Source of the DNA: a virus | Strand: one strand, 5' to 3' | IMG/VR virus record: IMGVR_UViG_3300027763_000016 | Span: 1 to 34,093 of that record | Length of the DNA: 34,093 nt | Part shown: positions 15,038 through 34,093 of the stretch, in pieces | Position numbering within the stretch: the first letter of the stretch is position 1 | How the letters are laid out: each line of letters opens with the position of its first letter | Program-made: the position numbers and the translations under genes | The notes under the pieces: generated by a model | Database searches by the model: none | What the model was told of the DNA's origin: nothing | Seen by the model: only the letters and a program-made list of their open reading frames with translations

Positions 15038-15477
15038 ACCTGGCCGCAGATCTATGCAAACGCTTTGAAGGATTTAGCGCTACTCCATACATCTGCCCGG
15101 CCGGGTATCCAACCATCGGATATGGCACAGTCTATAAGCCAGACGGAACTAAAGTAACGCTACAAGATAGCCCCATATCAAATGAGACAGCGCTCTCATG
15201 GTTGATGCAAGAGTTAACAAACAACTACATGGCTGGAGTTCTTAAGGCATCCCCTAGTCTCATTAATAAACCATTGGCCTTGGCCGCAATGACTGACTTT
15301 GCTTACAACTTAGGTGTTGGCAGATACCGCGCCAGCACATTGCGTAAGCGTATAGATAATCAAGATTGGATTGGGGCCACCACAGAGTTGCACAAATGGG
15401 TCTATGGTGGCGGTAAGAAGTTGCCAGGGCTTGTCAAACGCAGACAGGCCGAGGCAGATTTACTAACTAGCGTCTAG
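15016..15477 (+). CDS. Endolysin, GH24 lysozyme
   Basis: A 153-aa muramidase that cuts the glycan strands of peptidoglycan. The active-site pattern E18-8 residues-C27-5 residues-T33 matches the E-x8-(D/C)-x5-T triad of GH24 endolysins, with Cys in the place of the T4 Asp20. CPAGYPTIGYGT is the family signature. The C-terminal LVKRRQAEADLL is also typical. There is no signal peptide or SAR segment, so export depends on the holin. The start lies inside the holin gene. The 3' end overlaps recT, on the opposite strand, by 15 bp, leaving no space for a separate terminator. Confidence 0.93.
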   Translation: MGTQQAIDLAADLCKRFEGFSATPYICPAGYPTIGYGTVYKPDGTKVTLQDSPISNETALSWLMQELTNNYMAGVLKASPSLINKPLALAAMTDFAYNLGVGRYRASTLRKRIDNQDWIGATTELHKWVYGGGKKLPGLVKRRQAEADLLTSV

Positions 15478-16434
15478 CATGGCCTTACGCTTTTGTTTGT
15501 GTGCTGTCATACCAGCCTTTTGAACTGCACTTAGCAAGCCTAAGACATTTGCATTAAGAGTATTGAACTCACCTATCTTGCTGGCTTTAACTTCTTTGGA
15601 CAGTTTAGATCTAGCAACCTTATCAGCCATCTCGTTATAGGACTCCATCCAAGACTCAATACCATCACAGACAATGGCATCCTTACCGGGAATATTTAGC
15701 ATGAATGTGCCAGACTTTGGCAACTCATCTGACACTACCGGTAGCGGAGCATCCTCGATTGGTGGCACAGGCATCTCCTCAACTGTTGTATTTTGGAGAC
15801 AGTTATCAGCTGGTATATCCAAAATTTCTACCTCTGAAACTGACAAATTTGGGATAGCATCTAACGGGTTGTTAGATAGCACTTGTTTTGGCTTAGTAAT
15901 GGCCTCATCTACAGGCATATCCTGAGCCTCCTCAGCGGTTATTAATCCCTTAAGTACATCAGGGAAGGCATCCCTCAAAGCAAAGCCTCTGGCACGCATC
16001 TGGAGCATTCTCTTGGGATACTGAGACCAAGGCCCTTGCTTACCCCATAGACCAGCCCTCTTGGCATCCTCAACAGAGTACTTAGATACTACCTCAGAGC
16101 GGCCTTTGCGTTTAACCCGGCAGATAGCTACTGGATTGCTAGTGCCGTCTCCCTCGATGCTCTCTTGTACATCCTCGCATACTGGGCTGGCCTGTACTAA
16201 TGCCATTGCCGCATCACCATAGACTGATGGCTTGCCGTTGATTACAGAGATGTTCTGCAATGCCTGGAGGGGCGCGAGACCGATCTCGTATCCCCATTGA
16301 ACGGCCACAAGGATATCCTCTGGTTTGTTTTGATAGTTCTTTGGAACCATCTGTGATCTAGAAAGCATCGAACTAAACTCGATAGCCTCTGTCATTGTTT
16401 GTGGGGCGAACCCCTGGTGTTTTACTAAACTCAT
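15463..16434 (-). CDS. recT: RecT-family single-strand annealing protein
   Basis: A 323-aa protein that anneals complementary single strands during phage recombination. The N-terminal 200 residues carry the RecT core: MTEAIEFSSMLSRSQMVPKNYQNKPEDILVA, GYEIGLAPLQALQNISVINGKPSVYGDAA, then YSVEDAKRAGLWGKQGPWSQYPKRMLQMRARGFALRDAFPD. The last 120 residues are acidic and less conserved. It follows the YqaJ exonuclease with a 4-nt ATGA overlap, the standard synaptase-exonuclease pair. It is the last gene of the leftward operon and runs tail-to-tail into the endolysin. Confidence 0.93.
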   Translation of the reverse strand: MSLVKHQGFAPQTMTEAIEFSSMLSRSQMVPKNYQNKPEDILVAVQWGYEIGLAPLQALQNISVINGKPSVYGDAAMALVQASPVCEDVQESIEGDGTSNPVAICRVKRKGRSEVVSKYSVEDAKRAGLWGKQGPWSQYPKRMLQMRARGFALRDAFPDVLKGLITAEEAQDMPVDEAITKPKQVLSNNPLDAIPNLSVSEVEILDIPADNCLQNTTVEEMPVPPIEDAPLPVVSDELPKSGTFMLNIPGKDAIVCDGIESWMESYNEMADKVARSKLSKEVKASKIGEFNTLNANVLGLLSAVQKAGMTAHKQKRKAMLDAS

Positions 16435-17417
16435 TTTAATTCCTTTATCGTGAGAGTTGATTGGCGAATGGTGTAAGCCTCTTTTGCCGGTGTTATCTTT
16501 GTTGGCTGGGCTTTATATGTACGGGTTGGCCATGAGATCCGATACTCACCAGCAATTCCTGATGTGCGGTTCTTAAGCATTCCCATAATCTCTGTTTGAA
16601 TCTTGGAGTTTTCCTCTTCTGCTTTTGTAATTTTTAACTTGTTTTCTATAAGTAACTTAGTTAACTCTTCAGCATAAGTATCTAGTACTACTGGCTCATC
16701 GTCTGAGCCTGATGCCCAAGTCCTTGCCGCATCTTTAGGATTAATTGGTGGGTAATAATCAATCTCACCAGTATTTTTATAACGATCTAGTTTGTCCTGG
16801 AATGTCTTTGATGTCTCTTGGATGAGCCGTAATGTCGGAAGATGTTGCTCAAATAGGAAGATTCGTAACTGCGTACCCTGATAAAGCGTACATACCGCGC
16901 CCCATCCAGCTTTCATAATTGACATCTGTGCTTGCAACTGTATAGGCCCACGATACAGAGGCAATACATCCTCCGCTGGCATCGATGTTAGCTTGGCCTC
17001 CAGCACACCCATACCATCAAGCGTGATCGAGTCCTTGCCAACAATATAGATGCCATTATCTGGATCGCTGACAATGGTCTGGCCCTTGCCATATGCTGTG
17101 CCATCTAAAGAACAACTCAGGGGCCATTTATCATGAAAGAATGGAACCTGGTAATCAATCTCCAGATCCTTGCAATTCAATCGATTGGCGGCCTCCAGCA
17201 GAATGGTAGGTTCCATTTTGTTACCCCATCCCATTGCCTCATTAGATATATCAGGCGGTGATATACCATTGATGGCATCGATAGACGAGAGCAACTCATC
17301 GTTAGGTGATCTATACACGCTCATGCCGCAGACAGCCGGTAATCGGCTGGCCGAAAGCATATCATTTGGGGTTACTTTTCCTACCATGTCAAATCTCCGT
17401 TGGTGTTTTTGATTCAA
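16431..17417 (-). CDS. YqaJ-like / lambda-exonuclease-type recombination nuclease
   Basis: A 328-aa PD-(D/E)xK nuclease expected to resect double-strand ends 5' to 3', giving single strands for RecT. Visible motifs are GWGNKMEP with E69, SLDG with D105, and the E140-A-K142 of the catalytic E-x-K, followed by a conserved Q-L-Q-A-Q-M segment. The N-terminal MLSASRLPAVCG resembles the substrate-entry helix of the YqaJ family. The C-terminus has a helical hairpin. Its first 29 bases overlap the end of the upstream 56-aa gene. Confidence 0.9.
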   Translation of the reverse strand: MNQKHQRRFDMVGKVTPNDMLSASRLPAVCGMSVYRSPNDELLSSIDAINGISPPDISNEAMGWGNKMEPTILLEAANRLNCKDLEIDYQVPFFHDKWPLSCSLDGTAYGKGQTIVSDPDNGIYIVGKDSITLDGMGVLEAKLTSMPAEDVLPLYRGPIQLQAQMSIMKAGWGAVCTLYQGTQLRIFLFEQHLPTLRLIQETSKTFQDKLDRYKNTGEIDYYPPINPKDAARTWASGSDDEPVVLDTYAEELTKLLIENKLKITKAEEENSKIQTEIMGMLKNRTSGIAGEYRISWPTRTYKAQPTKITPAKEAYTIRQSTLTIKELK

Positions 17418-17559
17418 AGTATGCGGCCAGGCTGATAGCGTATCGCGCTACCTCTGCCGCAATATCGCTGGCGGCCTGGTTGTTGTTTGCTTGTGCGGCC
17501 TGGTGCATCATTCGCATAAGTCGGTCAATGCGTAATAGGTATTCAGAGTAGTCCATCAT
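17389..17559 (-). CDS. Small helical protein, 56 aa, unknown function
   Basis: This short gene starts in an ATGA overlap with the end of the winged-helix gene and its 3' end overlaps the exonuclease start, so it fills what would otherwise be a 138-base gap. The product begins MMDYSEYLLRIDRLMRMMHQ and is one long amphipathic helix with an Ala/Asn/Gln-rich middle. It could be a small partner of the exonuclease-RecT pair; that is inference from position. Confidence 0.55.
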   Translation of the reverse strand: MMDYSEYLLRIDRLMRMMHQAAQANNNQAASDIAAEVARYAISLAAYFESKTPTEI

Positions 17560-17801
17560 TTTGCCCTCTTCATTGCAACCATAGTCGGCGCTTTCTTAAG
17601 CCAATAGCGTTTCCACTTGTGAGTTGGCCTATCTGGATCGTGTTCGTATTCATCCTCAATCTGCCACCCCCTGGAGCGTAGTTGGTGGATGTAGTGCGCC
17701 AAGCGCGTGATGCCATAAGACTGTATGGCGTGCCAGCTTGTAATACCAGTACGCTTACGAGATTTAAGATGGCTCATTACTTGTTCTAATTGTGTATTCA
17801 C
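17556..17801 (-). CDS. Winged-helix / HTH DNA-binding protein, 81 aa
   Basis: A compact basic helix-turn-helix protein of the kind common in phage early regions (HTH_39-like). A GITSWHAIQSYGITRLAHYIHQLRSRGWQIE core (residues about 19-49) gives the recognition helix and wing. The basic tail contains HKWKRYWL. The start codon is GTG in a GTGA overlap with the preceding 55-aa gene, and the stop overlaps the next gene's ATG. It is a candidate transcription regulator or replication accessory. Confidence 0.75.
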   Translation of the reverse strand: MNTQLEQVMSHLKSRKRTGITSWHAIQSYGITRLAHYIHQLRSRGWQIEDEYEHDPDRPTHKWKRYWLKKAPTMVAMKRAK

Positions 17802-17965
17802 TTCAGTTTCCTTTCATTGCGAATTGAAATTGTGCGGTAGTACTCCCATTTCTTAATTACTTCTTTATCTTCAGATGGTGGAGTCCATCCAACTTTACGA
17901 AATATCTTTGAGATATCAGTTTTGACTGCTTGTGTATAAGGCACATCAGGATTAAGAATGTTCAT
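17798..17965 (-). CDS. Small protein, 55 aa, unknown function
   Basis: A 55-codon ORF with a strong AAGGAGAA ribosome binding site 5-6 nt before the ATG and a 4-nt GTGA overlap with the winged-helix gene. The product begins MNILNPDVPYTQAVKTDISK and ends very basic (RNERKLK). It has no membrane segment. It fills the gap between the 41-aa membrane protein and the regulator. No family recognised. Confidence 0.65.
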   Translation of the reverse strand: MNILNPDVPYTQAVKTDISKIFRKVGWTPPSEDKEVIKKWEYYRTISIRNERKLK

Positions 17966-17974
17966 AAATTCTCC

Positions 17975-18100
17975 TTAAGCAAAAGATATGATTAAAACAA
18001 AAGCAATAAGCGCTATCGCACCTATAACCCTGTCTGCAATTGACTCCTCCGACTTGTACAAATCTTTGGATGATTTATTGTGCTGATTAAATGACTGCAT
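17975..18100 (-). CDS. Single-pass membrane micro-protein, 41 aa
   Basis: A 41-codon ORF with a good AAGGAGAG ribosome binding site about 6 nt before the ATG, overlapping the serine recombinase 3' end by 14 nt. The first 24 residues are polar and charged (MQSFNQHNKSSKDLYKSEES); the last 17 are a transmembrane helix (VIGAIALIAFVLIISFA). It is probably an inner-membrane host-takeover or superinfection-type peptide, but nothing indicates which. Confidence 0.6.
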   Translation of the reverse strand: MQSFNQHNKSSKDLYKSEESIADRVIGAIALIAFVLIISFA

Positions 18101-18743
18101 GGTTAACTCTCCTTAAAAGCTGTGCTACTTGGGCTGGATGCCAGGTCTCATTGCCCCTGGCGGTTTTAATGCCGCGTAACTGCAACTCTGCGGCCACATC
18201 ACGCAAGTTGGAACCAACTTGAGCGACAATACTTTGAAGTGATGGTGCAACTCTGAAAGCATATGCATTAGCTTTGGCTTGGATGGCCTCTATACCGCGC
18301 TTAGAGCCTACTTCTGGTGTTGGACTACCCAAGACAGTACCGCGAACCTTAGCGGCCTGTAGGGCGGCTTTAGTACGCTCAGATATCTTGCGTGCCTCCC
18401 ACTCAGCAAACACAGCGGCCATCTGTAGGAATGTGCGGTCGGCCTCTGGCATATCAACTGCGATGAACTGCACGCCAGACTCCAACAGGCCAGAGATGAA
18501 GTGAACATTACGGGCCAAGCGATCTAACTTAGCAATCACCAGGGTGGCCTTATTCTTTTTTGCCAAGGCTAGAGCGGCGGCTAACTGTGGGCGGTCAGCT
18601 TTACGGCCTGACTCGATCTCTGTAAACTCCGCGATGAGTTCTTTGCCAGCGCAGTACTGTGTTACTGCTGATTGCTGGGACTCAAGGCCAAGGCCCGATT
18701 GGCCCTGACGCTGAGTTGATACGCGATAGTAGGCTACAAACAT
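18087..18743 (-). CDS. Small serine recombinase (resolvase/invertase family)
   Basis: A 218-aa site-specific recombinase. The catalytic N-terminal domain has YYRVST with nucleophile Ser9, a later ESGRKADRPQL, the KLDRLARN arginine motif, and AEWEARKISERTKAALQAAK, the long E helix. The C-terminus (SNLRDVAAELQLRGIKTARGNETWHPAQVAQLLRR) is a recombinase-type helix-turn-helix. The size is that of resolvases and invertases, not of large serine integrases (over 450 aa). It is the only recombinase here that could integrate, resolve dimers or invert DNA. It starts 2 nt after the upstream gene stop. Confidence 0.88.
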   Translation of the reverse strand: MFVAYYRVSTQRQGQSGLGLESQQSAVTQYCAGKELIAEFTEIESGRKADRPQLAAALALAKKNKATLVIAKLDRLARNVHFISGLLESGVQFIAVDMPEADRTFLQMAAVFAEWEARKISERTKAALQAAKVRGTVLGSPTPEVGSKRGIEAIQAKANAYAFRVAPSLQSIVAQVGSNLRDVAAELQLRGIKTARGNETWHPAQVAQLLRRVNHAVI

Positions 18744-18745
18744 AA

Positions 18746-18976
18746 TTAAGCCTCTACTTTCTGTGCGCGTACCATATTACGGGTATCGGTGTACTCAAAG
18801 AAGTAATGCTTTACTTGATTGATTACTTGATTGGCTCTTTTTGTATCGCCAGCCGCAATTAATTCTTGTACATCAGACAACATACCAGCCAAGCGCATAT
18901 TGATGTTGTAGGCTGTGTAGAAGGATGCCTCTAAGGTTTCTACTGGTGTGCCAAGCATTTCTTTTACTGTACTCAT
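18746..18976 (-). CDS. First gene of the leftward operon, 76 aa, unknown
   Basis: I chose the ATG at 18976 because a strong AGGAG lies 8 nt upstream; an in-frame ATG at 19054 would put the start inside the predicted promoter. The product begins MSTVKEMLGTPVETLEASFY and is a helical, soluble protein with no motif I know (DVQELIAAGDTKRANQVINQVKHYFFEYTDTRNM). As the promoter-proximal early gene it could be a regulator or anti-host protein. Confidence 0.7.
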   Translation of the reverse strand: MSTVKEMLGTPVETLEASFYTAYNINMRLAGMLSDVQELIAAGDTKRANQVINQVKHYFFEYTDTRNMVRAQKVEA

Positions 18977-19005
18977 GGTGTTAACTCCTCTATCTGGGTG
19001 GTTAA

Positions 19006-19019
19006 AAGCGATATCGCTT
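19006..19019. promoter_or_regulatory. Palindromic operator, copy 1 (AAGCGATATCGCTT)
   Basis: A perfect 14-bp palindrome between the predicted leftward -10 box and the first gene of the leftward operon. Read on the minus strand it begins exactly 7 nt after the -10 hexamer. The same 14-mer occurs only once more, at 23396-23409, with the same spacing from a rightward -10 box. The geometry fits a repressor or activator site overlapping the transcription start. Confidence 0.7.
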
Positions 19020-19026
19020 AGGTATG

Positions 19027-19054
19027 ACTTTACCACACTCAAAGTACTCGTCAA
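19027..19054 (-). promoter_or_regulatory. Leftward early promoter (sigma70-like)
   Basis: On the minus strand, TTGACG (5 of 6 to consensus, bases 19049-19054), a 16-bp spacer, then TAAAGT (4 of 6, bases 19027-19032). It points at the operon of unknown 76-aa gene, recombinase, small genes, exonuclease and RecT. The operator palindrome starts 7 nt downstream of the -10. Confidence 0.6.
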
Positions 19055-19084
19055 GGACTAAATGTAGTTTTACAACAGTTATTT

Positions 19085-19103
19085 ACTAGGTGTTTTCCCT
19101 AGT
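19085..19103. promoter_or_regulatory. Inverted repeat ACTAGG-N7-CCTAGT next to the rightward promoter
   Basis: A perfect 6-bp inverted repeat with a 7-bp spacer ends 2 nt before the predicted rightward -35 box. It could be an operator for the rightward promoter, possibly read by the ribbon-helix-helix protein encoded just downstream. It could also be a short hairpin, but no U-tract follows. Confidence 0.4.
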
Positions 19104-19105
19104 TA

Positions 19106-19134
19106 TTGCGCTACTGGTAGTCATCCTGTATGCT
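19106..19134 (+). promoter_or_regulatory. Rightward early promoter (candidate)
   Basis: TTGCGC (3 of 6), a 17-bp spacer and TATGCT (4 of 6). The expected start near 19141 falls at the first bases of the foldable leader that precedes the first rightward early gene. The -35 is weak, which would fit activator dependence. Confidence 0.4.
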
Positions 19135-19143
19135 CACAGATAT

Positions 19144-19210
19144 CGGATAGTACTGACACTATTCAGCACGAGATAACGAGGTTATAAGTCTAAAAAGACT
19201 GTGCTATCCG
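19144..19210 (+). promoter_or_regulatory. Branched, strongly foldable RNA leader
   Basis: A nested set of perfect stems read by eye. The outer stem is CGGA (19144-19147) with TCCG (19207-19210). Hairpin TAGT/ACTA is at 19148-19151 and 19158-19161. Stem AGCAC (19165-19169) with GTGCT (19201-19205) encloses two hairpins, ATAAC-GAG-GTTAT (19173-19185) and AGTCT-AAAA-AGACT (19187-19200). An alternative 7-bp pairing, CGGATAG with CTATCCG, competes with the first hairpin. It lies between the predicted transcription start and the first gene, with the ribosome binding site 11 nt beyond it. It may be a regulatory leader, a small RNA or a DNA cruciform. It is not a tRNA: there is no 7-base anticodon loop or T-arm. 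Confidence 0.55.
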
Positions 19211-19231
19211 GTCCCACAAACAGGAGAAAAG

Positions 19232-19405
19232 ATGTCAGAACTAAAACCATTCCTAGTGCGATTGCGCCCAGATGTTAGAACATTGTTAGAGCAGACGGCC
19301 CAGGAGCGAAAGAAACCCATAGCCAGCATTATTAATGAAGAGTTAAGAGCATCTCTTGGTAAGCAAGGAGATCTAGGCCAGCGTCTAACGCAGATGCTTG
19401 CGTGA
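19232..19405 (+). CDS. Ribbon-helix-helix DNA-binding protein, 57 aa
   Basis: A 57-codon gene with a CAGGAGAAAAG ribosome binding site, overlapping rusA by 4 nt (GTGA). The product, starting MSELKPFLVRLRPDVRTLLE, has an Arc/CopG layout: a beta strand FLVRLR (7-12), helix A to about residue 26, then KPIASIINEELRASL as helix B, and a short basic or polar tail. Such proteins dimerise and insert the strand pair into the major groove at palindromes. As the first gene after the divergent control region it is the best candidate for the factor that reads the local inverted repeats. Confidence 0.7.
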   Translation: MSELKPFLVRLRPDVRTLLEQTAQERKKPIASIINEELRASLGKQGDLGQRLTQMLA

Positions 19406-19761
19406 TAATCCTTAACCTACCATTTCCACCGAGCGTCAACACCTATTACAGGCGTGGCGCTCATGCCACCTACATGAGTAAGCAAGGGCGCGAATATAAG
19501 AAGGCCGTAGCTAATTACATCTCCGAGTCAAACACTCCCAAACTGGGATCTGCCAGGCTTTATTTGGAAGTTGTTTTGTGGCCCAAGGATAAGCGCAAAT
19601 ACGATATAGATAACCGCGTCAAGGCCTTACTGGATAGCCTCCAGGACGCTGGCGTATTCGATGACGATGAACAGATAGATCAGATCAATGTCTATCGCGG
19701 CAATGGAATATTTAAGGGTGGCCAGGCAAGAGTAATGATTGAGACATTGGAGACCGAATAA
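19402..19761 (+). CDS. rusA: RusA-family Holliday junction resolvase
   Basis: A 119-aa endonuclease that cuts four-way junctions symmetrically, here probably to clear branched recombination intermediates before packaging. Family marks are the N-terminal LPFPPSVNTYYRR, K-Y-D68-I-D70-N with the catalytic aspartates, and LLDSLQDAGVFDDDEQI with the third acidic site at residues 87-89. The length is normal for RusA (about 120 aa). The GTG start overlaps the RHH gene stop by 4 nt. Confidence 0.93.
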   Translation: MIILNLPFPPSVNTYYRRGAHATYMSKQGREYKKAVANYISESNTPKLGSARLYLEVVLWPKDKRKYDIDNRVKALLDSLQDAGVFDDDEQIDQINVYRGNGIFKGGQARVMIETLETE

Positions 19762-19782
19762 TGAAATATATTGAGAGGAATT

Positions 19783-20586
19783 ATGAATGAGTTGGCTTTA
19801 TTCTCAGGCGCTGGTGGAGGAATACTTGGGGGCAAACTGCTTGGATGGAGAACAGTCTGTGCCGTTGAGTGGGAATTATACCCAGCAAGCGTATTGTGCG
19901 CCAGACAAAATGACAAAATTCTCCCGACTTTCCCGATTTGGGATGATGTTCAAACCTTTGCCGGAACAAGCTGGCGAGGAATTGTTGATGTCGTATCAGG
20001 CGGCTTTCCATGCCAAGACATCTCAGCCGCTGGAAAAGGAACAGGAATTACCGGAACCCGAAGTTCAATGTGGAAACACATGGCAAGGATTATTGGCGAA
20101 GTACAACCCAAATTTGTCTTTGTGGAAAACTCCTCAATGCTTACTAGAAGAGGACTTGGAACAGTCATTGGAGACCTGGCCAGCATGGGGTATGACGCGG
20201 AATGGGGAGTCATATCAGCGGCAGATGTTGGAGCCAAACACTTGCGAAAGAGAATATGGATTGTTGCCGGACAATGTGACTTTCTTTCACACTCCAACAA
20301 CGGGATCAAGCGGTGGGAGCAACAGTCGCAAGGCGATGGCCAAAAGGAATGTAACCTGGCCAACTCCAACAACGGGAACCGGAGGGGGGAGCGCCGGAGG
20401 ATCGGGAGCGAGGAAAATAGCCAAAGCAAATGGAACCTATGTCCCATCTTCAATCAACCCGAACCTTTACGAGTGGTTGATGGGTTGGCCGCAAGAGTGG
20501 ACAGACTTAAAGCCGTTGGAAATGGACAAGTTCCACAAGTGGCGGCTCTTGCATGGCGAGTTCTTAGTGAAAGATTAAAGACATGA
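19783..20586 (+). CDS. C5-cytosine DNA methyltransferase
   Basis: A 267-aa enzyme that adds a methyl group from SAM to C5 of cytosine in a short target site, probably masking phage DNA from host restriction. In order: motif I FSGAGGG (7-13), motif IV GGFPC77Q with the catalytic cysteine, motif VI E115-N-S, motif VIII-like HLRKR (153-157), a variable Asn/Gln/Arg-rich target-recognition region (170-230), then the C-terminal RLKAVGNGQVP. I chose the ATG at 19783, with GAGAGGAATT just upstream, over a TTG at 19771. The last bases overlap the zinc-ribbon gene (ATGA). A second long frame occupies the same DNA. Confidence 0.92.
   Translation: MNELALFSGAGGGILGGKLLGWRTVCAVEWELYPASVLCARQNDKILPTFPIWDDVQTFAGTSWRGIVDVVSGGFPCQDISAAGKGTGITGTRSSMWKHMARIIGEVQPKFVFVENSSMLTRRGLGTVIGDLASMGYDAEWGVISAADVGAKHLRKRIWIVAGQCDFLSHSNNGIKRWEQQSQGDGQKECNLANSNNGNRRGERRRIGSEENSQSKWNLCPIFNQPEPLRVVDGLAARVDRLKAVGNGQVPQVAALAWRVLSERLKT
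19787..20578 (+). CDS. Overprinted frame inside the methyltransferase gene, 263 aa
   Basis: An ATG 4 nt after the methyltransferase ATG opens a second frame that runs stop-free to 8 nt before the methyltransferase stop. The product is Trp-rich and begins MSWLYSQALVEEYLGANCLD. It contains LSRFGMMFKPL, SLETWPAWGMTRNGE, two Pro-Thr repeats (HTPTTGSSGG and WPTPTTGTGGG) and ends with WLMGWPQEWTDLKPLEMDKF. From memory, phage genomes contain many hypothetical proteins with this start, the WPTPT repeats and this end. The same ribosome binding site could serve both ATGs. A chance frame shadowing a conserved gene remains possible. Confidence 0.5.
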   Translation: MSWLYSQALVEEYLGANCLDGEQSVPLSGNYTQQAYCAPDKMTKFSRLSRFGMMFKPLPEQAGEELLMSYQAAFHAKTSQPLEKEQELPEPEVQCGNTWQGLLAKYNPNLSLWKTPQCLLEEDLEQSLETWPAWGMTRNGESYQRQMLEPNTCEREYGLLPDNVTFFHTPTTGSSGGSNSRKAMAKRNVTWPTPTTGTGGGSAGGSGARKIAKANGTYVPSSINPNLYEWLMGWPQEWTDLKPLEMDKFHKWRLLHGEFLVKD

Positions 20587-20777
20587 GCCACGAGAATGAT
20601 TTATATACCAAGGCCGTACAGGCCGACAGTTCAATTACCGGCAAGCGCTGGTGTAGCAACTGCCAGATGGGCAAAGACTTTAGAAATGGTGCATGGATAA
20701 TAAGCGCAAACAAAAGACAAAAGCGGTGGATGTGCAAGGATTGCTGGGATCGGAAACAAGCCAGGGAAAAGAAGTAG
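20583..20777 (+). CDS. Zinc-ribbon mini-protein, 64 aa
   Basis: A basic protein with C-x2-C (WCSNCQ, about residues 24-27) and C-x2-C (MCKDCW, about 50-53) pairs 22 residues apart, a treble-clef or zinc-ribbon layout. The tail RKQAREKK is strongly basic. The start overlaps the methyltransferase stop as ATGA. It probably binds nucleic acid; the role is unknown. Confidence 0.8.
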   Translation: MSHENDLYTKAVQADSSITGKRWCSNCQMGKDFRNGAWIISANKRQKRWMCKDCWDRKQAREKK

Positions 20778-21040
20778 ATGAGGACAGGCTCAGATGTTTC
20801 GCTTGTAATCAAGTTCACCCAGGAGGGCGGCTACTTCGTCTGCCTAATGGCCAGACAGTCGGAAACTACTCGGAAGAATTCCGCTTGTATGCTGAGGCTA
20901 AGTCAATACTCAAAAGATTTAGAACTAGAAAGACCAGACAACTGTACCTCGCGAGGGTGGCAGAACTGCGTGGCCATGCTGGCTATGACGCGCTCCGCAA
21001 TGCCATGTTAGAGATATACAACCGAGAGAATAAGCAATGA
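20693..21040 (+). CDS. Phage protein with N-terminal Cys pair and helical C-terminus, up to 115 aa
   Basis: The frame contains RLRCFACNQVHPGGRLLRLPNGQ (a zinc-knuckle-like C-x2-C and H) followed by YSEEFRLYAEAKSILKRF and RKTRQLYLARVAELRGHAGYDALRNAMLEIY, which resembles a small phage family of unknown function. The start is uncertain. The first ATG (20693) overlaps the upstream gene by 85 nt; GTG at 20726 or 20732 or a TTG at 20741 would shorten the overlap. The 3' end overlaps the next gene (ATGA). Confidence 0.65.
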   Translation: MDNKRKQKTKAVDVQGLLGSETSQGKEVDEDRLRCFACNQVHPGGRLLRLPNGQTVGNYSEEFRLYAEAKSILKRFRTRKTRQLYLARVAELRGHAGYDALRNAMLEIYNRENKQ

Positions 21041-21204
21041 TTTGTATCAATGAAGAGTGCGACAGCCAAGACATCAAGGTGGCCGAGACCAGGCACCATG
21101 AGTTCAACAACTGGGTCTGTAGACGCAGAGTCTGTAAGGATTGCGGATACTCTTGGTGGAGCAATGAGATACCGCATTTTCAGTTGCCACCGAGCCTGGT
21201 ATGA
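21037..21204 (+). CDS. NrdR-like zinc-ribbon mini-protein, 55 aa
   Basis: A short gene bounded by ATGA overlaps on both sides. The product begins MICINEECDSQDIKVAETRH and continues VCRRRVCKDCGYSWW: C-x4-C and C-x2-C with arginines between, very like the N-terminal zinc ribbon of the NrdR transcription repressor, but without its ATP-cone. It may act as a small DNA- or RNA-binding regulator. Confidence 0.75.
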   Translation: MICINEECDSQDIKVAETRHHEFNNWVCRRRVCKDCGYSWWSNEIPHFQLPPSLV

Positions 21205-21440
21205 ACCCTATTTACTTTTCTACCATTATGCGTATAGACTACGAGGACGGGGCCATAACCCAGCCCTTGAGAATGGAGCATTGCCAGACTCAGATAAACG
21301 CAGTCGAATCGTGGGGAAAGTTCATGCTACCAAGCATCGAGTCCAGTTCCGCGGAGGTGAATAACCCAGACAAGGCGATAAACGATAGATGCTCTCTGAA
21401 AAGAGATATCCCGTACATATATACGGGTGAGGTTCTATGA
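21201..21440 (+). CDS. Hypothetical protein, 79 aa
   Basis: It starts and ends in 4-nt ATGA overlaps, which supports this frame over the longer competing frame at 21050-21364. The product begins MNPIYFSTIMRIDYEDGAIT, is soluble and mixed in charge, and ends PYIYTGEVL. No motif or family recognised. It belongs to the early rightward operon upstream of the replication-type protein. Confidence 0.6.
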   Translation: MNPIYFSTIMRIDYEDGAITQPLRMEHCQTQINAVESWGKFMLPSIESSSAEVNNPDKAINDRCSLKRDIPYIYTGEVL

Positions 21441-22213
21441 AGGTTTTAACCGGGGATAAACCAAACTTCCAAATCCCTAAGCAACCCAAAGTCAAGATAA
21501 AGCCAGCGCCACCAGATCAGCGGCAGATAGCGGTAATGCCAATCAAAGCGTTGACAGATAAAAGATTGAATGGTGGATGCGTCAGAGTTCTAGCATTGAT
21601 ATGCAGTTATGCAAACAGGGCTGGAATCACTTGGGTCGGGCAAGCGAGGCTGGCACAAGACCTACAAACCAACAAGCAGTACATATCGCGAATGATGGGA
21701 ATACTGCGAAATGCTGGCTACATCGAGACGCTGACCAAGGGCGCTAAGAATAGCCACACCGCCACTACAAGAGTTATATATAACAAGTCTATCAATCACT
21801 TAGATGCGATAGCTTTAGTTAATGAAGAGTCTAGAAGTCCACAGATGATTAAACAAGAGGAGAAGTACATGGAAAAGATGCTCAGCAAGGGGTCTAAACG
21901 GGCGCGTAAGACGATTAAATTACCAGTTAAGGCTGAGGCACTAGCGGTGATAGAAAAGGCCAAGGTTGCGGTTGTAGTGGATCATAACAATGTCGAGGGC
22001 ATAGTCCAATCGATATATAGAAGTGTGTTTTTTAAAGATAAATTAATAAATGATTTGGATTTGAAAGGATTTGAAATAATAGCAATGTGTCAAATTCGGG
22101 AGCAGATGCTCAGTCGAGACCTAGAATTGTGGTTGAGCGCGAGGCCAGGCGAACCCGACAGCATCGTTGACTTTGCCAGGGCGCTGATGGATGAGAACTG
22201 CTCTGGTTGCTAG
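21437..22213 (+). CDS. Winged-helix replication-initiator-like protein, 258 aa
   Basis: The N-terminal 40 residues are basic and Pro/Lys-rich. Residues about 34-100 form a winged helix: MPIKALTDKRLNGGCVRVLALICSYAN, then ARLAQDLQTNKQYISRMMGILRNAGYIE, the pattern of phage replication proteins of the lambda O or plasmid Rep kind. The middle is Lys-rich; the C-terminal 60 residues are an acidic helical domain that could recruit the host helicase loader. No helicase, primase or polymerase gene is present, which makes an initiator role more likely. The function is inferred. Confidence 0.6.
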   Translation: MKVLTGDKPNFQIPKQPKVKIKPAPPDQRQIAVMPIKALTDKRLNGGCVRVLALICSYANRAGITWVGQARLAQDLQTNKQYISRMMGILRNAGYIETLTKGAKNSHTATTRVIYNKSINHLDAIALVNEESRSPQMIKQEEKYMEKMLSKGSKRARKTIKLPVKAEALAVIEKAKVAVVVDHNNVEGIVQSIYRSVFFKDKLINDLDLKGFEIIAMCQIREQMLSRDLELWLSARPGEPDSIVDFARALMDENCSGC

Positions 22214-22432
22214 GCAATGTAGGTAGATAGGGGCTTGTAACAAACCCAAATGGTCGTATGGAATTGCAACGGGGGTATAGGGGTGGTGTATTACGCACAA
22301 AGCAAGGTGGTCTCGCACATAGCGCCAGAGGTCGATTACAGCAAGGCGGCATACCCTCCCCCCCTGTCTCCCACTATGGTGGGGGTGTCCCACTCAATTT
22401 TTCCCAGGTATTTTCAAAAAAGGAGTCTTAAC
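22214..22432 (+). other. Non-coding gap with G and C tracts, candidate origin or terminator
   Basis: This 219-base stretch lies between the replication-type gene and the next ribosome binding site. It is unlike its surroundings: G-runs on the left (GGGGG near 22272 and GGGG near 22280), a run of seven C at 22358-22364, and a hairpin CTCCCAC-TATG-GTGGGGG at 22368-22385. A T5 tract begins 12 nt after the stem, too far for a classic terminator. The location just after the initiator-like gene would suit an origin. An open frame through it is probably chance. Confidence 0.4.
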
Positions 22433-22603
22433 ATGGATGACCAAGCAAAGTTGCAAAGAGAACTGCATAGCGCCGTACTAACTATGCTTAGACAAGGGTT
22501 TACCCTACAATCCGTAATTCATGCGCTAATCGTGGAGTCAGAAAAGTTATCTGACTGTGCGGCAGTAGTACAAGCAGTTAACGAATTTAACCACCAACCA
22601 TAG
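22433..22603 (+). CDS. Small helical protein, 56 aa
   Basis: The ATG at 22433 has an excellent AAGGAGTC ribosome binding site 6 nt upstream, so I prefer it to the GTG at 22250 that would extend the frame into non-coding DNA. The product begins MDDQAKLQRELHSAVLTMLR and is fully helical with a hydrophobic face; no motif is visible. It lies 13 nt before the SSB-like gene. Confidence 0.65.
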   Translation: MDDQAKLQRELHSAVLTMLRQGFTLQSVIHALIVESEKLSDCAAVVQAVNEFNHQP

Positions 22604-22616
22604 ATAGGTATAAACA

Positions 22617-22916
22617 ATGGCATACGATAAGCCTTTTGAGATTAAGCCAGGCAACTTTCAGTTATTTAAAAACACAAAGAAAGTAGATCAAAAACACGCA
22701 GACTGGACAGGCACTATCAAGCTACCGGATGGGCGCGAGTACTGGTTCAATATGTATAACAAGGAAGGCGCTAAGGGAGCCTATTTTTCTGGATATATTG
22801 GGAAAGAGAAACAGCAGTTAAATGCTCCGGCATCGTTTAATAGCTTTGCGCCATCAGTCATTGGTAGGCCAGAGAACTACGCAGAGGTAGCGCCGTTAGA
22901 TGATGTGCCGTTCTAA
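22617..22916 (+). CDS. Candidate single-stranded-DNA-binding protein, 99 aa
   Basis: The middle (DWTGTIKLPDGREYWFNMYN) looks like a small OB-type beta barrel with aromatic residues. The C-terminus ends in an acidic tip, APLDDVPF, matching the D-D-x-P-F tail with which SSB proteins dock their partners. The length is short for an SSB. It would protect strands exposed during RecT/exonuclease recombination. The stop overlaps the terminase small subunit start (TAATG). The fold is inferred from pattern only. Confidence 0.55.
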   Translation: MAYDKPFEIKPGNFQLFKNTKKVDQKHADWTGTIKLPDGREYWFNMYNKEGAKGAYFSGYIGKEKQQLNAPASFNSFAPSVIGRPENYAEVAPLDDVPF

Positions 22917-23344
22917 TGGCCACAACTAGGCCAAAGGCTAAGGTAGCAAGTCAGATTCCATCCCTACAAAATTGGGGTGGGATCCGATCGATACAAAAGA
23001 GGCTAGAGAGGTCAGCCACCATAACAGAGAATCGTGAGGCGGTGGCCTACTCTTTGCTCTGTATGGCCAACACGAAGATTACAGACATCATGGAGTGGGA
23101 CGATGAGGGCAAAGTTAAGGTTAAGGCTAGTAAAGATATTCCTGACCATGCCTTGCAAGCCATCAAAAGTCTTAAAGTTAATAAGGATGGTAATTTAGAG
23201 TTGGAGTTATACGACAAGGTTGGCGTACTGCGTCTGTTGGCCAAGGCATCAGGTCTCCTGGATAACCCAGAAGAGTCAGATAAGCCATCAGTTATTGGCA
23301 TCAACATCAGGCCACCAGATGTGCAAGATGTGGAAGTTGATTAA
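22916..23344 (+). CDS. Terminase small subunit, short form
   Basis: A 142-aa protein that would recognise the packaging start and load the large subunit. The C-terminal 100 residues match the family pattern: REAVAYSLLCMANTKITDIMEWDDEG, then DIPDHALQAIKSLKVNKDGNLELELYDKVGVLRLLAKASGLL. The usual N-terminal helix-turn-helix of this family is not evident; only about 25 basic residues precede the core. It lies 2.8 kb upstream of the large subunit and is separated from it by two small-gene modules, which is unusual. Confidence 0.75.
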   Translation: MATTRPKAKVASQIPSLQNWGGIRSIQKRLERSATITENREAVAYSLLCMANTKITDIMEWDDEGKVKVKASKDIPDHALQAIKSLKVNKDGNLELELYDKVGVLRLLAKASGLLDNPEESDKPSVIGINIRPPDVQDVEVD

Positions 23345-23360
23345 AAAACAACAATAGCTA

Positions 23361-23388
23361 TTGCTTTTTATTTTGTAGTCATTAATAT
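23361..23388 (+). promoter_or_regulatory. Rightward promoter before the second small-gene module
   Basis: TTGCTT (3 of 6), a 16-bp spacer and TAATAT (4 of 6), followed 7 nt later by the operator palindrome. The same arrangement is seen at the leftward promoter near 19.0 kb. A CAATAGCTATTG palindrome (23352-23363) abuts the -35 box. Confidence 0.45.
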
Positions 23389-23394
23389 CTGGGT

Positions 23395-23410
23395 TAAGCG
23401 ATATCGCTTA
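23395..23410. promoter_or_regulatory. Palindromic operator, copy 2 (16-bp TAAGCGATATCGCTTA)
   Basis: A perfect 16-bp palindrome whose inner 14 bp equal the copy at 19006-19019. It begins (inner part) exactly 7 nt after the predicted -10 and ends 16 nt before the GTG start of the first gene, so a bound protein would cover the transcription start. Confidence 0.7.
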
Positions 23411-23426
23411 CAACTTGGAGAATAAT

Positions 23427-23627
23427 GTGACTACATTTACCACCGATGACCTCAAAAAAGTCCAGCAGATGCCGACAGTTATCATTGATTCTGGGGCCAG
23501 CTATGAAGAGCCTATTCCGTTTGCTGGCATAGTAGAGATAAGCCCAGATTGGGAAGAGGAAGATATCTTGCTTGATGACATTACCAACCCAAGAACAAAT
23601 CATATCGGCGAAAGATGGAGCGAGTGA
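23427..23627 (+). CDS. Acidic hypothetical protein, 66 aa
   Basis: I chose GTG at 23427 because GGAG lies 6 nt upstream; a TTG at 23415 is the only longer option and would be part of the ribosome binding site. The product is very acidic (DWEEEDILLDDI) with a neutral N-terminus (TTFTTDDLKKVQQMPTVIID). An acidic DNA mimic is one possibility, but no motif is visible. Confidence 0.6.
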   Translation: MTTFTTDDLKKVQQMPTVIIDSGASYEEPIPFAGIVEISPDWEEEDILLDDITNPRTNHIGERWSE

Positions 23628-23743
23628 GTTTTACTATCTATACGCATGATGGCATGAAAGTTGTTCAATGGTTTAAAAATGTAGATGAACTACTGAAATC
23701 AATGCTTAATAACCCTAAAGACAGATACCATAGAAATGAATGA
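23615..23743 (+). CDS. Micro-protein, 42 aa
   Basis: A short frame overlapping the upstream gene by 13 nt and the next by 8 nt, filling the 108-base gap between them. The product begins MERVSFTIYTHDGMKVVQWF and ends basic. The ATG at 23615 or the GTG at 23624 could be the start. Plausible from tiling alone. Confidence 0.45.
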   Translation: MERVSFTIYTHDGMKVVQWFKNVDELLKSMLNNPKDRYHRNE

Positions 23744-23939
23744 TCCAGTAAACCATCCTAAACACTACACCAGCCACCCATCGGGGATTGAATGTATCCA
23801 GGTTACAGAGCATATGGGGTTTTGCCTTGGCAACGCCGTTAAGTACATCTGGCGTGCTGACGAGAAACACGATGCTATTGAGGATCTGCGTAAGGCCAAA
23901 TGGTATATTGAGCGCGAAATAGCTAAGAGGATTAAATGA
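23736..23939 (+). CDS. DUF3310-type phage protein, 67 aa
   Basis: The N-terminal VNHPKHYTSHPSGIECIQVTEHMGFCLGNAVKYIWRADEK and the later EDLRKAKWYIEREI match the DUF3310 (SaV-like) pattern common in phages of many hosts. The family is sometimes annotated as nucleotide-kinase related, without firm evidence. The length is normal. It overlaps the next gene by 4 nt (ATGA). Confidence 0.88.
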   Translation: MNDPVNHPKHYTSHPSGIECIQVTEHMGFCLGNAVKYIWRADEKHDAIEDLRKAKWYIEREIAKRIK

Positions 23940-24157
23940 ATACAGAAGAATGGAATAAAGGTTACGAAAAGGGCCGCGATGACTATTGCTGTAATGGTAA
24001 CTGCAATCAAGGTAGAGATTGCCCTTTACGCACAAAGACACTAACAGATGAGGAAATAATTAATATAGCTAAAGAACACATACATCAAAAACTTGAAGGA
24101 GAAAGATTTGGTTATTTAGATTTTTCTAGAGCAATACTAAGAAAGGCACAAGAGTGA
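23936..24157 (+). CDS. Cys-rich hypothetical protein, 73 aa
   Basis: Four cysteines lie within 12 residues (YCCNGNCNQGRDCPL, about 17-31), suggesting a zinc or disulfide knot, followed by a helical domain (LTDEEIINIAKEHIHQKL). It starts in ATGA and ends in GTGA overlaps. No family known to me. Confidence 0.65.
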   Translation: MNTEEWNKGYEKGRDDYCCNGNCNQGRDCPLRTKTLTDEEIINIAKEHIHQKLEGERFGYLDFSRAILRKAQE

Positions 24158-24393
24158 AAATACTTAAATGGTCTGGAACCACCTTGTGTTTAATTGGTAT
24201 AGCGCTTACCAGCTTTAATGTTTATCCATTGAATATTTTGGTTGGGTTTATCGGCTCTTTATTGTGGGCCGCGGCTGGATATATGCAAGATGACTTGCCG
24301 TTATTGGTGGTTGAGTTAGTGGCAACTGTCATTTATTTTTTTGGGATAGTAACATATATGTTAATAGCGCTAAGAAACTGGGGAATACTATGA
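24154..24393 (+). CDS. Small membrane protein, DUF6552-like, 79 aa
   Basis: Three hydrophobic segments (about 6-22, 28-44 and 50-73) make this a polytopic inner-membrane protein. The opening WSGTTLCLIGIALTSFNVYPLNI and GFIGSLLWAAAGYMQ(D)DLPL resemble the DUF6552 family, as I recall it. The GTG start lies in a GTGA overlap. The role is unknown. Confidence 0.65.
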   Translation: MKILKWSGTTLCLIGIALTSFNVYPLNILVGFIGSLLWAAAGYMQDDLPLLVVELVATVIYFFGIVTYMLIALRNWGIL

Positions 24394-24695
24394 GAAAGCT
24401 ATTATTCGGTGCATTATTTTGTGTAGTATTTTGCACAAAATCCTACGCTCAAGTTACTTTTATGACTGATGGCCTGGGGATGCCAGTAGGCCTAGTGCAG
24501 ACTATTGCGAATATGAACTACTACTCAACTGCTCGCGGTATGCCTGTGGCCGTAGAGACTAAGAAGGGTAATACTTCTTTCTATTCTGATGGCCTACTAA
24601 AGCCAATCGGCACATCATACACACCTACAAACCCTAATCCATTGGATTCTGCATTTGCCCAGCCAGGGATGTTTACATCTATCTGGGATAAATAA
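24390..24695 (+). CDS. Secreted small protein with short internal repeats, 101 aa
   Basis: The N-terminus MRKLLFGALFCVVFCTKSYAQV is a clear Sec signal peptide with cleavage after SYA (residue 20), so the mature 81-aa product is periplasmic or beyond. It carries three related motifs: DGLGMPVG, ARGMPVAV and DGLLKPIG, each followed by a polar spacer. There is no lipobox and no catalytic motif. It is the last gene of the 23.4-24.7 kb module. It might alter the host envelope, for example in superinfection exclusion. Confidence 0.7.
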   Translation: MRKLLFGALFCVVFCTKSYAQVTFMTDGLGMPVGLVQTIANMNYYSTARGMPVAVETKKGNTSFYSDGLLKPIGTSYTPTNPNPLDSAFAQPGMFTSIWDK

Positions 24696-27725: not shown

Positions 27726-28219
27726 TGAAAACATCTATTCCATACGAACTTCTTAATGAGCAGATGCATAAACGCAGAGGCTTATTTACTTTGCCATTTG
27801 TAATCGATCACTTTGACCAGATGGATATAGAACAACCTGAGTTGCTGGCAGTATCTAGGGGTTATGGCATTCGAGATATGGTATCTAGCCAGGCTCAACT
27901 AGGCACAGCTATTACTATTTTTTATCATGGTAAACCCGTAGCCATTGTTGGGGTCATATTGTTCTGGGGTGGCGTTGGTGAGATGTGGGCCTTGTTCGAT
28001 CACCAGGCTAGAAAGATGCCATCTACAATGGTTAAATGCGCTTTATCATTTATCGATATCGCTATGAGATATCTACACTTGCATAGATTGCAAATAACAG
28101 TTAGAACTGATGACAGTCGTGCTATTCGTTATGCAAAGTCTTTGTATTTTGAAACTGAATGCGTAATGAGAAAGTATGGCCCAGACAAAGTTGACTCTTA
28201 CTTAATGACGAGGTTATAA
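27725..28219 (+). CDS. GNAT-like / DUF2833-type protein, 164 aa
   Basis: Similar in layout to the small acetyltransferase-like proteins found beside terminase and portal genes in T7-like podoviruses (DUF2833 type). A beta-strand region GTAITIFYHGKPVAIVGVILFWGGVGEMWALFD is followed by a helix, then LHRLQITVRTDDSRAIRYAKSLYFETECVMRKYGPD, which matches the GNAT C-terminal strand-helix-strand. The usual R/Q-x-x-G-x-G/A acetyl-CoA loop is not clear, so it may be non-enzymatic. Confidence 0.65.
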   Translation: MKTSIPYELLNEQMHKRRGLFTLPFVIDHFDQMDIEQPELLAVSRGYGIRDMVSSQAQLGTAITIFYHGKPVAIVGVILFWGGVGEMWALFDHQARKMPSTMVKCALSFIDIAMRYLHLHRLQITVRTDDSRAIRYAKSLYFETECVMRKYGPDKVDSYLMTRL

Positions 28220-32732: not shown

Positions 32733-33575
32733 ATGAGCGTATCTTTATCAAACGCCTTTGTAACCCTCTTTGATGCTGAGGTAAAACAGTCCTACCAGGG
32801 CAAAGCAATGTTGGTAGGTGCCGTTCGTCAGCGCAGAGGAGTTGAAGGCTCAACTGTTAAGTTCCCTAAAGTTGGCAAAGGCGTAGCTACACCACGCATT
32901 GGTCAAACTGATGTAACCCCATTAAATGTTGGCTTTTCAAATGTAACTTGTACTCTTGGTGATTACAATGCCGCTGAATATAGCGATATCTTTTCACAAG
33001 CTAAAGTTAACTTTGACGAGCGTTCAGAGTTGGTTCAAGTTCTTGGCAACGCCATTGGCCGCCGTCAAGATCAAATGATCCTTGATGCTTTAGCAAACTC
33101 TAGCACTTCCTTAACTGTATCTAACGATATCGGTGGTACTGACACAAACATGAATGTGGCTAAATTGCGCGAATCCAAGAAACTTTTGGACAAGAACAAT
33201 GTGCCACCAGAAGGCCGTCATATCATTCTGCACGCATCTGGTTTAGCATCTTTGTTGTCTGAGACAGCAGTTACATCTTCTGACTTCAATACTGTTAAAG
33301 CATTGGTTGCTGGTGAAATCAACACTTTCTTAGGTTTTACTTTCCATATCCTAGGCGATCGCTCTGAGGGTGGCTTGGCAATTGATGGTTCTTTAGACCG
33401 CACTTGTTTTGCTTTCCACAAAGATTCTATCGGCTATGCTGAAGGTATTGCCCCACGCACAGAAATCAACTACATCCCAGAAAAGACATCGTTCCTAGTG
33501 AACTCTGTATTCTCTGCTGGTGCAATTGCTATCGATGCTGAAGGTATTGTCCAAATCACCGCTCGCGAATCTTAA
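32733..33575 (+). CDS. Major capsid protein
   Basis: A 280-aa capsid protein. The N-terminal VTLFDAEVKQSYQGKAMLVGAVRQRRGVEGSTVKFPKVGKG is typical of T7-like and related podoviral capsid proteins with the HK97 fold, and it continues with the spine-helix region EYSDIFSQAKVNFDERSELVQVLGNAIGRRQDQMILDAL. It is shorter than T7 gp10A (345 aa). It follows the scaffold in the standard order and is preceded by its own leader. Confidence 0.93.
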   Translation: MSVSLSNAFVTLFDAEVKQSYQGKAMLVGAVRQRRGVEGSTVKFPKVGKGVATPRIGQTDVTPLNVGFSNVTCTLGDYNAAEYSDIFSQAKVNFDERSELVQVLGNAIGRRQDQMILDALANSSTSLTVSNDIGGTDTNMNVAKLRESKKLLDKNNVPPEGRHIILHASGLASLLSETAVTSSDFNTVKALVAGEINTFLGFTFHILGDRSEGGLAIDGSLDRTCFAFHKDSIGYAEGIAPRTEINYIPEKTSFLVNSVFSAGAIAIDAEGIVQITARES

Positions 33576-33937: not shown

Positions 33938-34093
33938 ATGGCCGCTGGTGATACATCGTTATCGATATGTTCTGATGCATTAGTGATGCTGGGCGCAAAG
34001 CCCATTTCGTCATTTGATGAAGGCACAGATGAGGCCTCTATTTCCGATCGCTTATATAGCGATATCAAGAACCAGGCATTGATGTTATATCCC
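33938..34093 (+). CDS. Tail tubular protein A, 5' part (continues at base 128 after closing the circle)
   Basis: The ATG at 33938, with GGAGAATTAA upstream, starts the gene; bases 33967-34093 repeat bases 1-127. The first ten residues (MAAGDTSLSI) are found only here. Joined to the copy at the left end it gives the 204-aa protein described there. Confidence 0.9.
   Translation, partial: MAAGDTSLSICSDALVMLGAKPISSFDEGTDEASISDRLYSDIKNQALMLYP
33967..34093. repeat. Terminal direct repeat, right copy (circular overlap)
   Basis: Identical to bases 1-127. It should be trimmed when the genome is drawn as a circle. Confidence 0.95.

Follow-up and report, generated by a model that had tools for sequence, protein, structure and literature searches.

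The window analysed here, 34,093 bases of viral DNA, is the whole of IMG/VR record IMGVR_UViG_3300027763_000016. Positions 1-127 and 33967-34093 form an exact 127-base terminal repeat, so the genome is probably complete. We followed a palindrome, AAGCGATATCGCTT, which lies at a leftward early promoter and at a rightward promoter, together with the gene of a 57-amino-acid (aa) ribbon-helix-helix (RHH) protein, the candidate regulator. The leftward promoter precedes an operon with recombination genes, and the rightward promoter a small-gene module that also encodes a hydrophobic 79-aa protein (Table 1). A cytosine methyltransferase is encoded in the window as well.

Palindromes at the promoters

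A sequence-only reading of this DNA had placed the palindrome exactly 7 nt after the -10 hexamer at both promoters, on opposite strands, and had seen no other full copy. An exact search of all 34,093 bases bore out both points: there are two copies, with the layout TTGACG-16-TAAAGT-CATACCT-palindrome on the minus strand and TTGCTT-16-TAATAT-CTGGGTT-palindrome on the plus strand (promoter starts are predicted from sequence throughout). With up to 3 mismatches, the palindrome had 12 matches against 1.4 expected, and 0 of 100 shuffles reached 12. The GATATC core of the palindrome also lies in a third promoter, which drives the RHH gene away from the leftward operon. Thus, the regulon first proposed, the leftward operon plus the small-gene module, was incomplete; it would take in the RHH promoter too, and the whole genome if the dispersed sites described below are bound.

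Table 1. Features of the window, with positions and strands
Feature	Position	Strand	Remarks
Box in leftward early promoter, AAGCGATATCGCTT	19006..19019		12/12 to consensus; also predicted first 14 nt of leftward mRNA
Box in rightward promoter, AAGCGATATCGCTT	23396..23409		12/12 to consensus; also predicted 5' stem-loop
Leftward sigma70-type promoter	19020..19054	-	-35 TTGACG 19049-19054, -10 TAAAGT 19027-19032; conserved in 51 distinct leaders
Rightward promoter, downstream of terS	23361..23395	+	TTGCTT-16-TAATAT (-10 23383-23388); conserved in relatives
RHH-gene promoter	19106..19144	+	TTGCGC-17-TATGCT (19129-19134); GATATC box 19139-19144 overlaps expected start
57-aa Arc-like RHH protein	19232..19405	+	Candidate reader of the boxes
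Structured RNA leader of RHH mRNA	19142..19212	+	Outer stem AUCGGAUAG/CUAUCCGGU
Conserved leader TTTAACCACCCAGATAGAGGAGTT with Shine-Dalgarno hairpin	18979..19005	-	Perfect C-G/G-C exchange
Intragenic box	10429..10434		11/12 to consensus
Pair of intragenic boxes, 13 bp apart (28055, 28068)	28055..28073		First scores 11/12
Intragenic box	32985..32990		11/12 to consensus
Intragenic box	33126..33131		10/12 to consensus
Leftward operon	15463..18976	-	76-aa gene, serine resolvase, small genes, RecE-like, RecT-like
Serine resolvase	18087-18743	-	Leftward operon
Winged helix (HTH_39, 81 aa)	17556-17801	-	Small gene of leftward operon
RecE-like YqaJ	16431-17417	-	Leftward operon
RecT-like	15463-16434	-	Leftward operon
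Small-gene module behind rightward promoter	23415..24695	+	Six open reading frames
DUF3310	23736-23939	+	Small-gene module

Relatives were fetched from IMG/VR via the terminase-small-subunit gene and the 76-aa leftward gene. Searching with the core GCGATATCGC yielded 51 distinct leaders of the left type and 39 matches of the right type, a few of the latter being chance matches in unrelated contigs; flanks, promoters and downstream genes vary. AGCG begins 7-9 nt past the -10 in 51 distinct left and 32 distinct right leaders of relatives, so that the fixed 7-nt geometry is conserved but not absolute; among contigs from an open pattern scan, the spacing was 7 nt in 27 cases with a good upstream sigma70 pair.

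In four distant relatives (L071, L075, L080, L082) the syntenic promoter holds the box in its -35/-10 spacer, outside the transcribed DNA, and starts another 5' hairpin, ACGGCAG/CTGTCGT. The cultured relative MEP301, a Methylophilales phage, likewise carries CGATATC in the spacer, one box at its leftward promoter, and a start hairpin AACACG/CGTGTT, with 4 GATATC in 34.8 kb. It follows from this untranscribed position that the box acts as DNA. Upstream of the RHH gene, the box is also recurrent: across 21 representatives at <=90% identity, GATATC was the most frequent hexamer of the preceding 120 bp (18 of 21 lineages, often directly past the -10), and the next hexamer, which overlaps GATATC, reached 11 of 21.

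Two further palindromic elements were seen at promoters. An extra inverted repeat, AACACAA-N4-TTGTGTT, covers the -35/-10 region of the leftward promoter in L087, L088, L064 and L150. A TTGACA-box pattern scan of all viral contigs gave six matches and was rejected: L214 and L215 look coding, and L219 (IMGVR 2643221702), a contig of an apparently unrelated isolate genome, has a similar palindrome, TTGACATGCGATATCGCACATGGTATATT, in the spacer of a strong promoter.

Dispersed boxes and the RHH protein

The window contains 33 copies of GATATC (32 discounting the terminal repeat, as 34061 repeats 95), about one per kb and nearly all inside open reading frames. The positions are 95, 1071, 2419, 4246, 4537, 4886, 6946, 9878, 10059, 10144, 10429, 10741, 16312, 17912, 18382, 19010, 19139, 21405, 23400, 23562, 26083, 26692, 28055, 28068, 30197, 30692, 31487, 31962, 32082, 32985, 33126, 33743, and 34061. 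The two promoter palindromes are the sole complete matches to the 12-bp consensus.

Measured against synonymous-codon shuffles, coding GATATC was in excess in the window (26 copies, 13 expected), and more so with its flanks ([CA]GATATC[GT], 15 against 3.9). All three codon frames were above expectation (17/3/6 versus 10.3/1.7/0.9). The excess was also found in six other near-complete genomes and in most distant fragments, the distant lineages of the comparison being partly fragments; coding GATATC was depleted in G010, G013, G014, and MEP301. Most RHH-bearing groups displayed 6-11 GATATC per 10 kb, versus 1-2 for 23 matched palindromes. When the coding DNA of 12 sets was pooled, the most enriched 8-mers were GATATCGC, GAGATATC, AGATATCG, AGCGATAT, and AGATATCT, with CGATATCG close behind; four of these five contain GATATC and the other, AGCGATAT, overlaps it. 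The flank consensus of the coding boxes is AG[CA]GATATC[GT]CT. A codon-pair artefact was rejected given the enrichment of all three frames and of the flanks, and with G010 as a control.

The sites are also retained in relatives, 2-3 times better than other hexamers. Aligned GATATC was conserved at 0.50-0.70 in G003, G004, G006, and G007, against 0.19-0.25 for control hexamers, and the values relative to other hexamers were 0.67 versus 0.50 in the close relative G001, 0.38 versus 0.19 in G012, and 0.17 versus 0.12 in G011. Close pairs of boxes cluster at 11-13 bp, some of them being the same site in related genomes.

GATATC is the EcoRV sequence, and a difference in density could arise through restriction and modification if some phages shielded the site and others avoided it. 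The RHH-less relatives G013 and G014 have no GATATC in 31-35 kb and are depleted of other palindromes too, and the methyltransferase of the window would suit such shielding. However, relaxed avoidance yields neither an excess over codon shuffles nor a flank preference nor promoter placement, and it gives no account of the switch to the asymmetric box GACAAC described below; on these grounds we rejected restriction alone. Moreover, most GATATC-rich relatives lack the methyltransferase. We therefore consider this explanation highly improbable.

G014 displayed features of its own. In L246 and L247, the 8-mer AGTTCCGC occurs 14 times in coding DNA against 1.3, with 15 GCGGAAC sites in one 13-kb part; found in coding DNA only and at no promoter, GCGGAAC was rejected as a third specificity. 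In L098, the divergent slot beside the 76-aa gene encodes a Cro-type helix-turn-helix look-alike, as judged by eye.

Among the window's genes, only that of the RHH protein tracks GATATC-richness across relatives. Its AlphaFold model has helices at residues 13-26, 30-43, and 48-56, and Arc structures, the Arc-operator complex included, were the top Foldseek matches of the model (probability ~0.99, TM 0.64-0.71), in agreement with an RHH fold; MatP was among the weaker ones. By hidden Markov model, the family is weakly Arc/CopG/TacA-like, with Pfam Arc at 13.3 bits, under the 20.4 cut-off. In sequenced bacterial genomes, 25 stretches fitted the peptide pattern of the protein and none was confirmed as a relative.

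The strongest evidence that this protein reads the boxes is that box and recognition strand change together. G010 is a full relative (terL 85% and capsid 71% identical) whose RHH protein has the recognition strand TMIRL for FLVRL. Its genome has a single GATATC, and 0 of 12 aligned sites are conserved in it. Instead, GACAAC is the hexamer most enriched in its coding DNA (57 versus 16.7 expected), with TGACAACA at 16 copies against ~2 expected; among 8-mers, TGACAACA also ranks first in its relatives L058, L062, and L065 taken together. GACAAC lies in both the leftward and the RHH promoters at all four loci with this RHH type, and of its boxes 41 are sense and 20 antisense. [TC]GACAACA does not occur in the window.

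The sequence-only reading had proposed one regulator for both promoter sites and had named two candidate readers, the RHH and the 81-aa winged-helix protein. One regulator is very probable, and the 57-aa RHH, by far the best candidate, very probably reads both palindromes; the winged helix is not supported. Its gene lies within the leftward operon, but G011, which is rich in GATATC, lacks it, and no copy was found in the fragments L060, L066, L081 and L314 of further GATATC-rich relatives. A host factor might in principle act on many phages, but it leaves unexplained both the co-change with the RHH strand and the zero sites in RHH-less phages. A reader other than the RHH protein, of the phage or of the host, thus seems very unlikely.

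Several observations weigh against RHH-read, dispersed operators. MEP301 and the fragments L216 and L063 carry the RHH gene and a promoter box without a genome-wide GATATC excess, so that having the protein does not necessarily bring dispersal; the promoter circuit seems to be the older part, to which dispersal was added later. A relocated RHH gene in L088 and L064 lacks a clear promoter box, and L327, with a more distant RHH protein and the strand TMLRL, has no GACAAC box at its RHH gene, so the box does not follow from the strand letters alone. In individual genomes, some other k-mers match the GATATC scores and k-mer ranks are noisy; pooling the lineages gives the strongest signal, and shared descent accounts for sites in common among close relatives. 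Regarding the fold, the Foldseek E-value was 0.14, known RHH families were matched weakly (the best family member reached phrog_3431, 'Arc-like repressor', at E = 1.5e-5), and the best of five AlphaFold models reached a predicted local distance difference test score (pLDDT) of 80 with no strand assigned. The model was a monomer, and RHH strands pair only in the dimer.

Predicted structure at the 5' ends of the transcripts

The leftward palindrome forms a predicted stem-loop, AAGCG-AUAU-CGCUU, at the first base of the mRNA. Relatives keep a stem near the start with other sequences (ACGGCA/TGCCGT, ACTGCA/TGCAGT, AACACG/CGTGTT, AGAGAA/TTCTCT) and with compensatory changes; in 35 distinct called leaders, the stems start most often 7-9 nt past the called -10. 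Since relatives with other hairpins or with a spacer box keep a nearby stem, a 5'-terminal stem-loop gives the better explanation of the fixed spacing. Bacterial RppH and RNase E require single-stranded 5' ends (PMC3997798), and the stem could thus plausibly protect the mRNA. The ompA and papA stem-loops (cited in PMC3997798) also begin at the first transcribed base, but they act as RNA only, whereas the stem of the window doubles as a predicted operator.

The palindrome could in principle be a stabilising stem-loop alone, its DNA unread by any protein. The position of the stem, its persistence through sequence change and the needs of the two enzymes would all agree with this. Nevertheless, the AUAU loop is invariant in all GATATC-type leaders, and the site also occurs in untranscribed spacers and, with the same flanks, dispersed in coding DNA. 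Given the spacer and coding sites, we rejected RNA as the sole explanation, which we rate as most unlikely. In the window's lineage, the DNA box and the predicted 5'-terminal stem-loop are two layers that coincide.

The leaders of both divergent transcripts carry further structure. The pair in the Shine-Dalgarno hairpin of the leftward leader is C..G in 32 distinct leaders and G..C in 19, with no mixed case. The outer stem of the RHH leader begins at the 8th base past the -10 and has two pairs with compensatory changes; this leader also carries conserved UGACACUAUUCAG and GACUAAAAAGAC, and had no relevant match in Rfam.

Proposed circuit and related systems

Taking together the sites, their conservation and dispersal, their co-occurrence with the RHH protein and the matched change of box and recognition strand, we think it likely that the palindromes are RHH operators in an autoregulated early shut-off of three promoters. 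Early in infection, host sigma70 RNA polymerase would transcribe three units: the RHH operon, the recombination operon divergent from it, and the small-gene module. On accumulating, the RHH protein would bind the GATATC boxes overlapping the three promoters and close them, its own included, by negative feedback. Arc of phage P22, an early repressor that regulates its own expression, has its operator between the -35 and -10, with half-sites ~11 bp apart; repression, autorepression included, is suggested here because the boxes overlap the start or the spacer, as with Arc. The blunt 5' stem-loop provided by the operator at the two promoter palindromes would slow attack by RppH and RNase E. The 57-aa RHH would bind AGCGATATCGCT, and the G010 protein would prefer TGACAACA.

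The protein would also occupy ~30 further boxes, mostly intragenic. Their role may be obstruction of elongation, titration or DNA organisation, the likeliest being a stoperator-like block to elongating polymerase or titration of the repressor in proportion to the number of genome copies. Alternatively, the RHH protein could be mainly a genome-organising or packaging protein of the MatP kind, with the promoter boxes as a by-product. The density of sites, mostly intragenic, and the RHH fold shared with MatP would fit such a role. However, the best-matching sites of the window are at promoters, and promoter control looks older given the boxes without dispersal in MEP301, L216, and L063. We regard a mainly organising role as unlikely.

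Compared with known systems, P22 Arc is also a small phage RHH protein, and spacer boxes in several relatives and pairs 11-13 bp apart recall its operator. However, Arc has one operator, whereas the boxes here are dispersed genome-wide, and structure-based sequence identity to the window's protein is ~25-28%.

Cluster A mycobacteriophages (L5 gp71 and relatives) have 20-30 genome-wide stoperators, including sites in the early promoter and at the gene of the regulator, and motif and regulator co-diverge (PMC6550527, PMC9283540). A phage regulator, above-chance sites across the genome and co-divergence of site and regulator are common to both systems. In contrast, the stoperator regulator is a 183-residue two-domain monomer, and the 57-aa Arc-like protein has an RHH fold instead and is no gp71 homologue. 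Stoperators are asymmetric and oriented with transcription, whereas GATATC is palindromic and GACAAC mildly oriented; they lie mostly in short intergenic gaps, whereas the sites of the window are mostly intragenic. SPBRE of prophage SPbeta is likewise an element repeated across a phage genome for a master repressor, but its reader, MrpR, has a tyrosine-recombinase fold rather than an RHH fold and SPBRE lies in intergenic promoter regions (PMC10516654). In the open-access literature we found stoperators and SPBRE, and no RHH system with dispersed sites.

As for lifestyle, no integrase was found in the window. The MEP301 paper reports no serine-integrase recombinase domain and makes no mention of a repressor (PMC8024684). 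One distant relative, L329 / G019:C36 (terL 66%, capsid 69%), is part of a Hyphomicrobiales assembly, on a 186-kb contig where ordinary bacterial genes flank it and a tyrosine recombinase, which may be the host's own, is found nearby. This setting suggests that some relatives may be prophages, although mis-assembly is possible.

More broadly, and at about even chances in our view, a widespread group of short-tailed phages may run a stoperator-like system on a minimal Arc-type RHH protein, in which ~30 boxes kept within codons would be occupied and act on elongation, titration or DNA organisation, and in which changes of the recognition strand would have re-coded the boxes genome-wide. If true, stoperator logic would operate on one of the smallest known DNA-binding folds, with its sites kept within coding sequence, and these phages would form a compact natural series in which the joint change of specificity in a regulator and dozens of sites could be studied. 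The proposal gives a testable control circuit for a common, almost uncharacterised group of aquatic phages.

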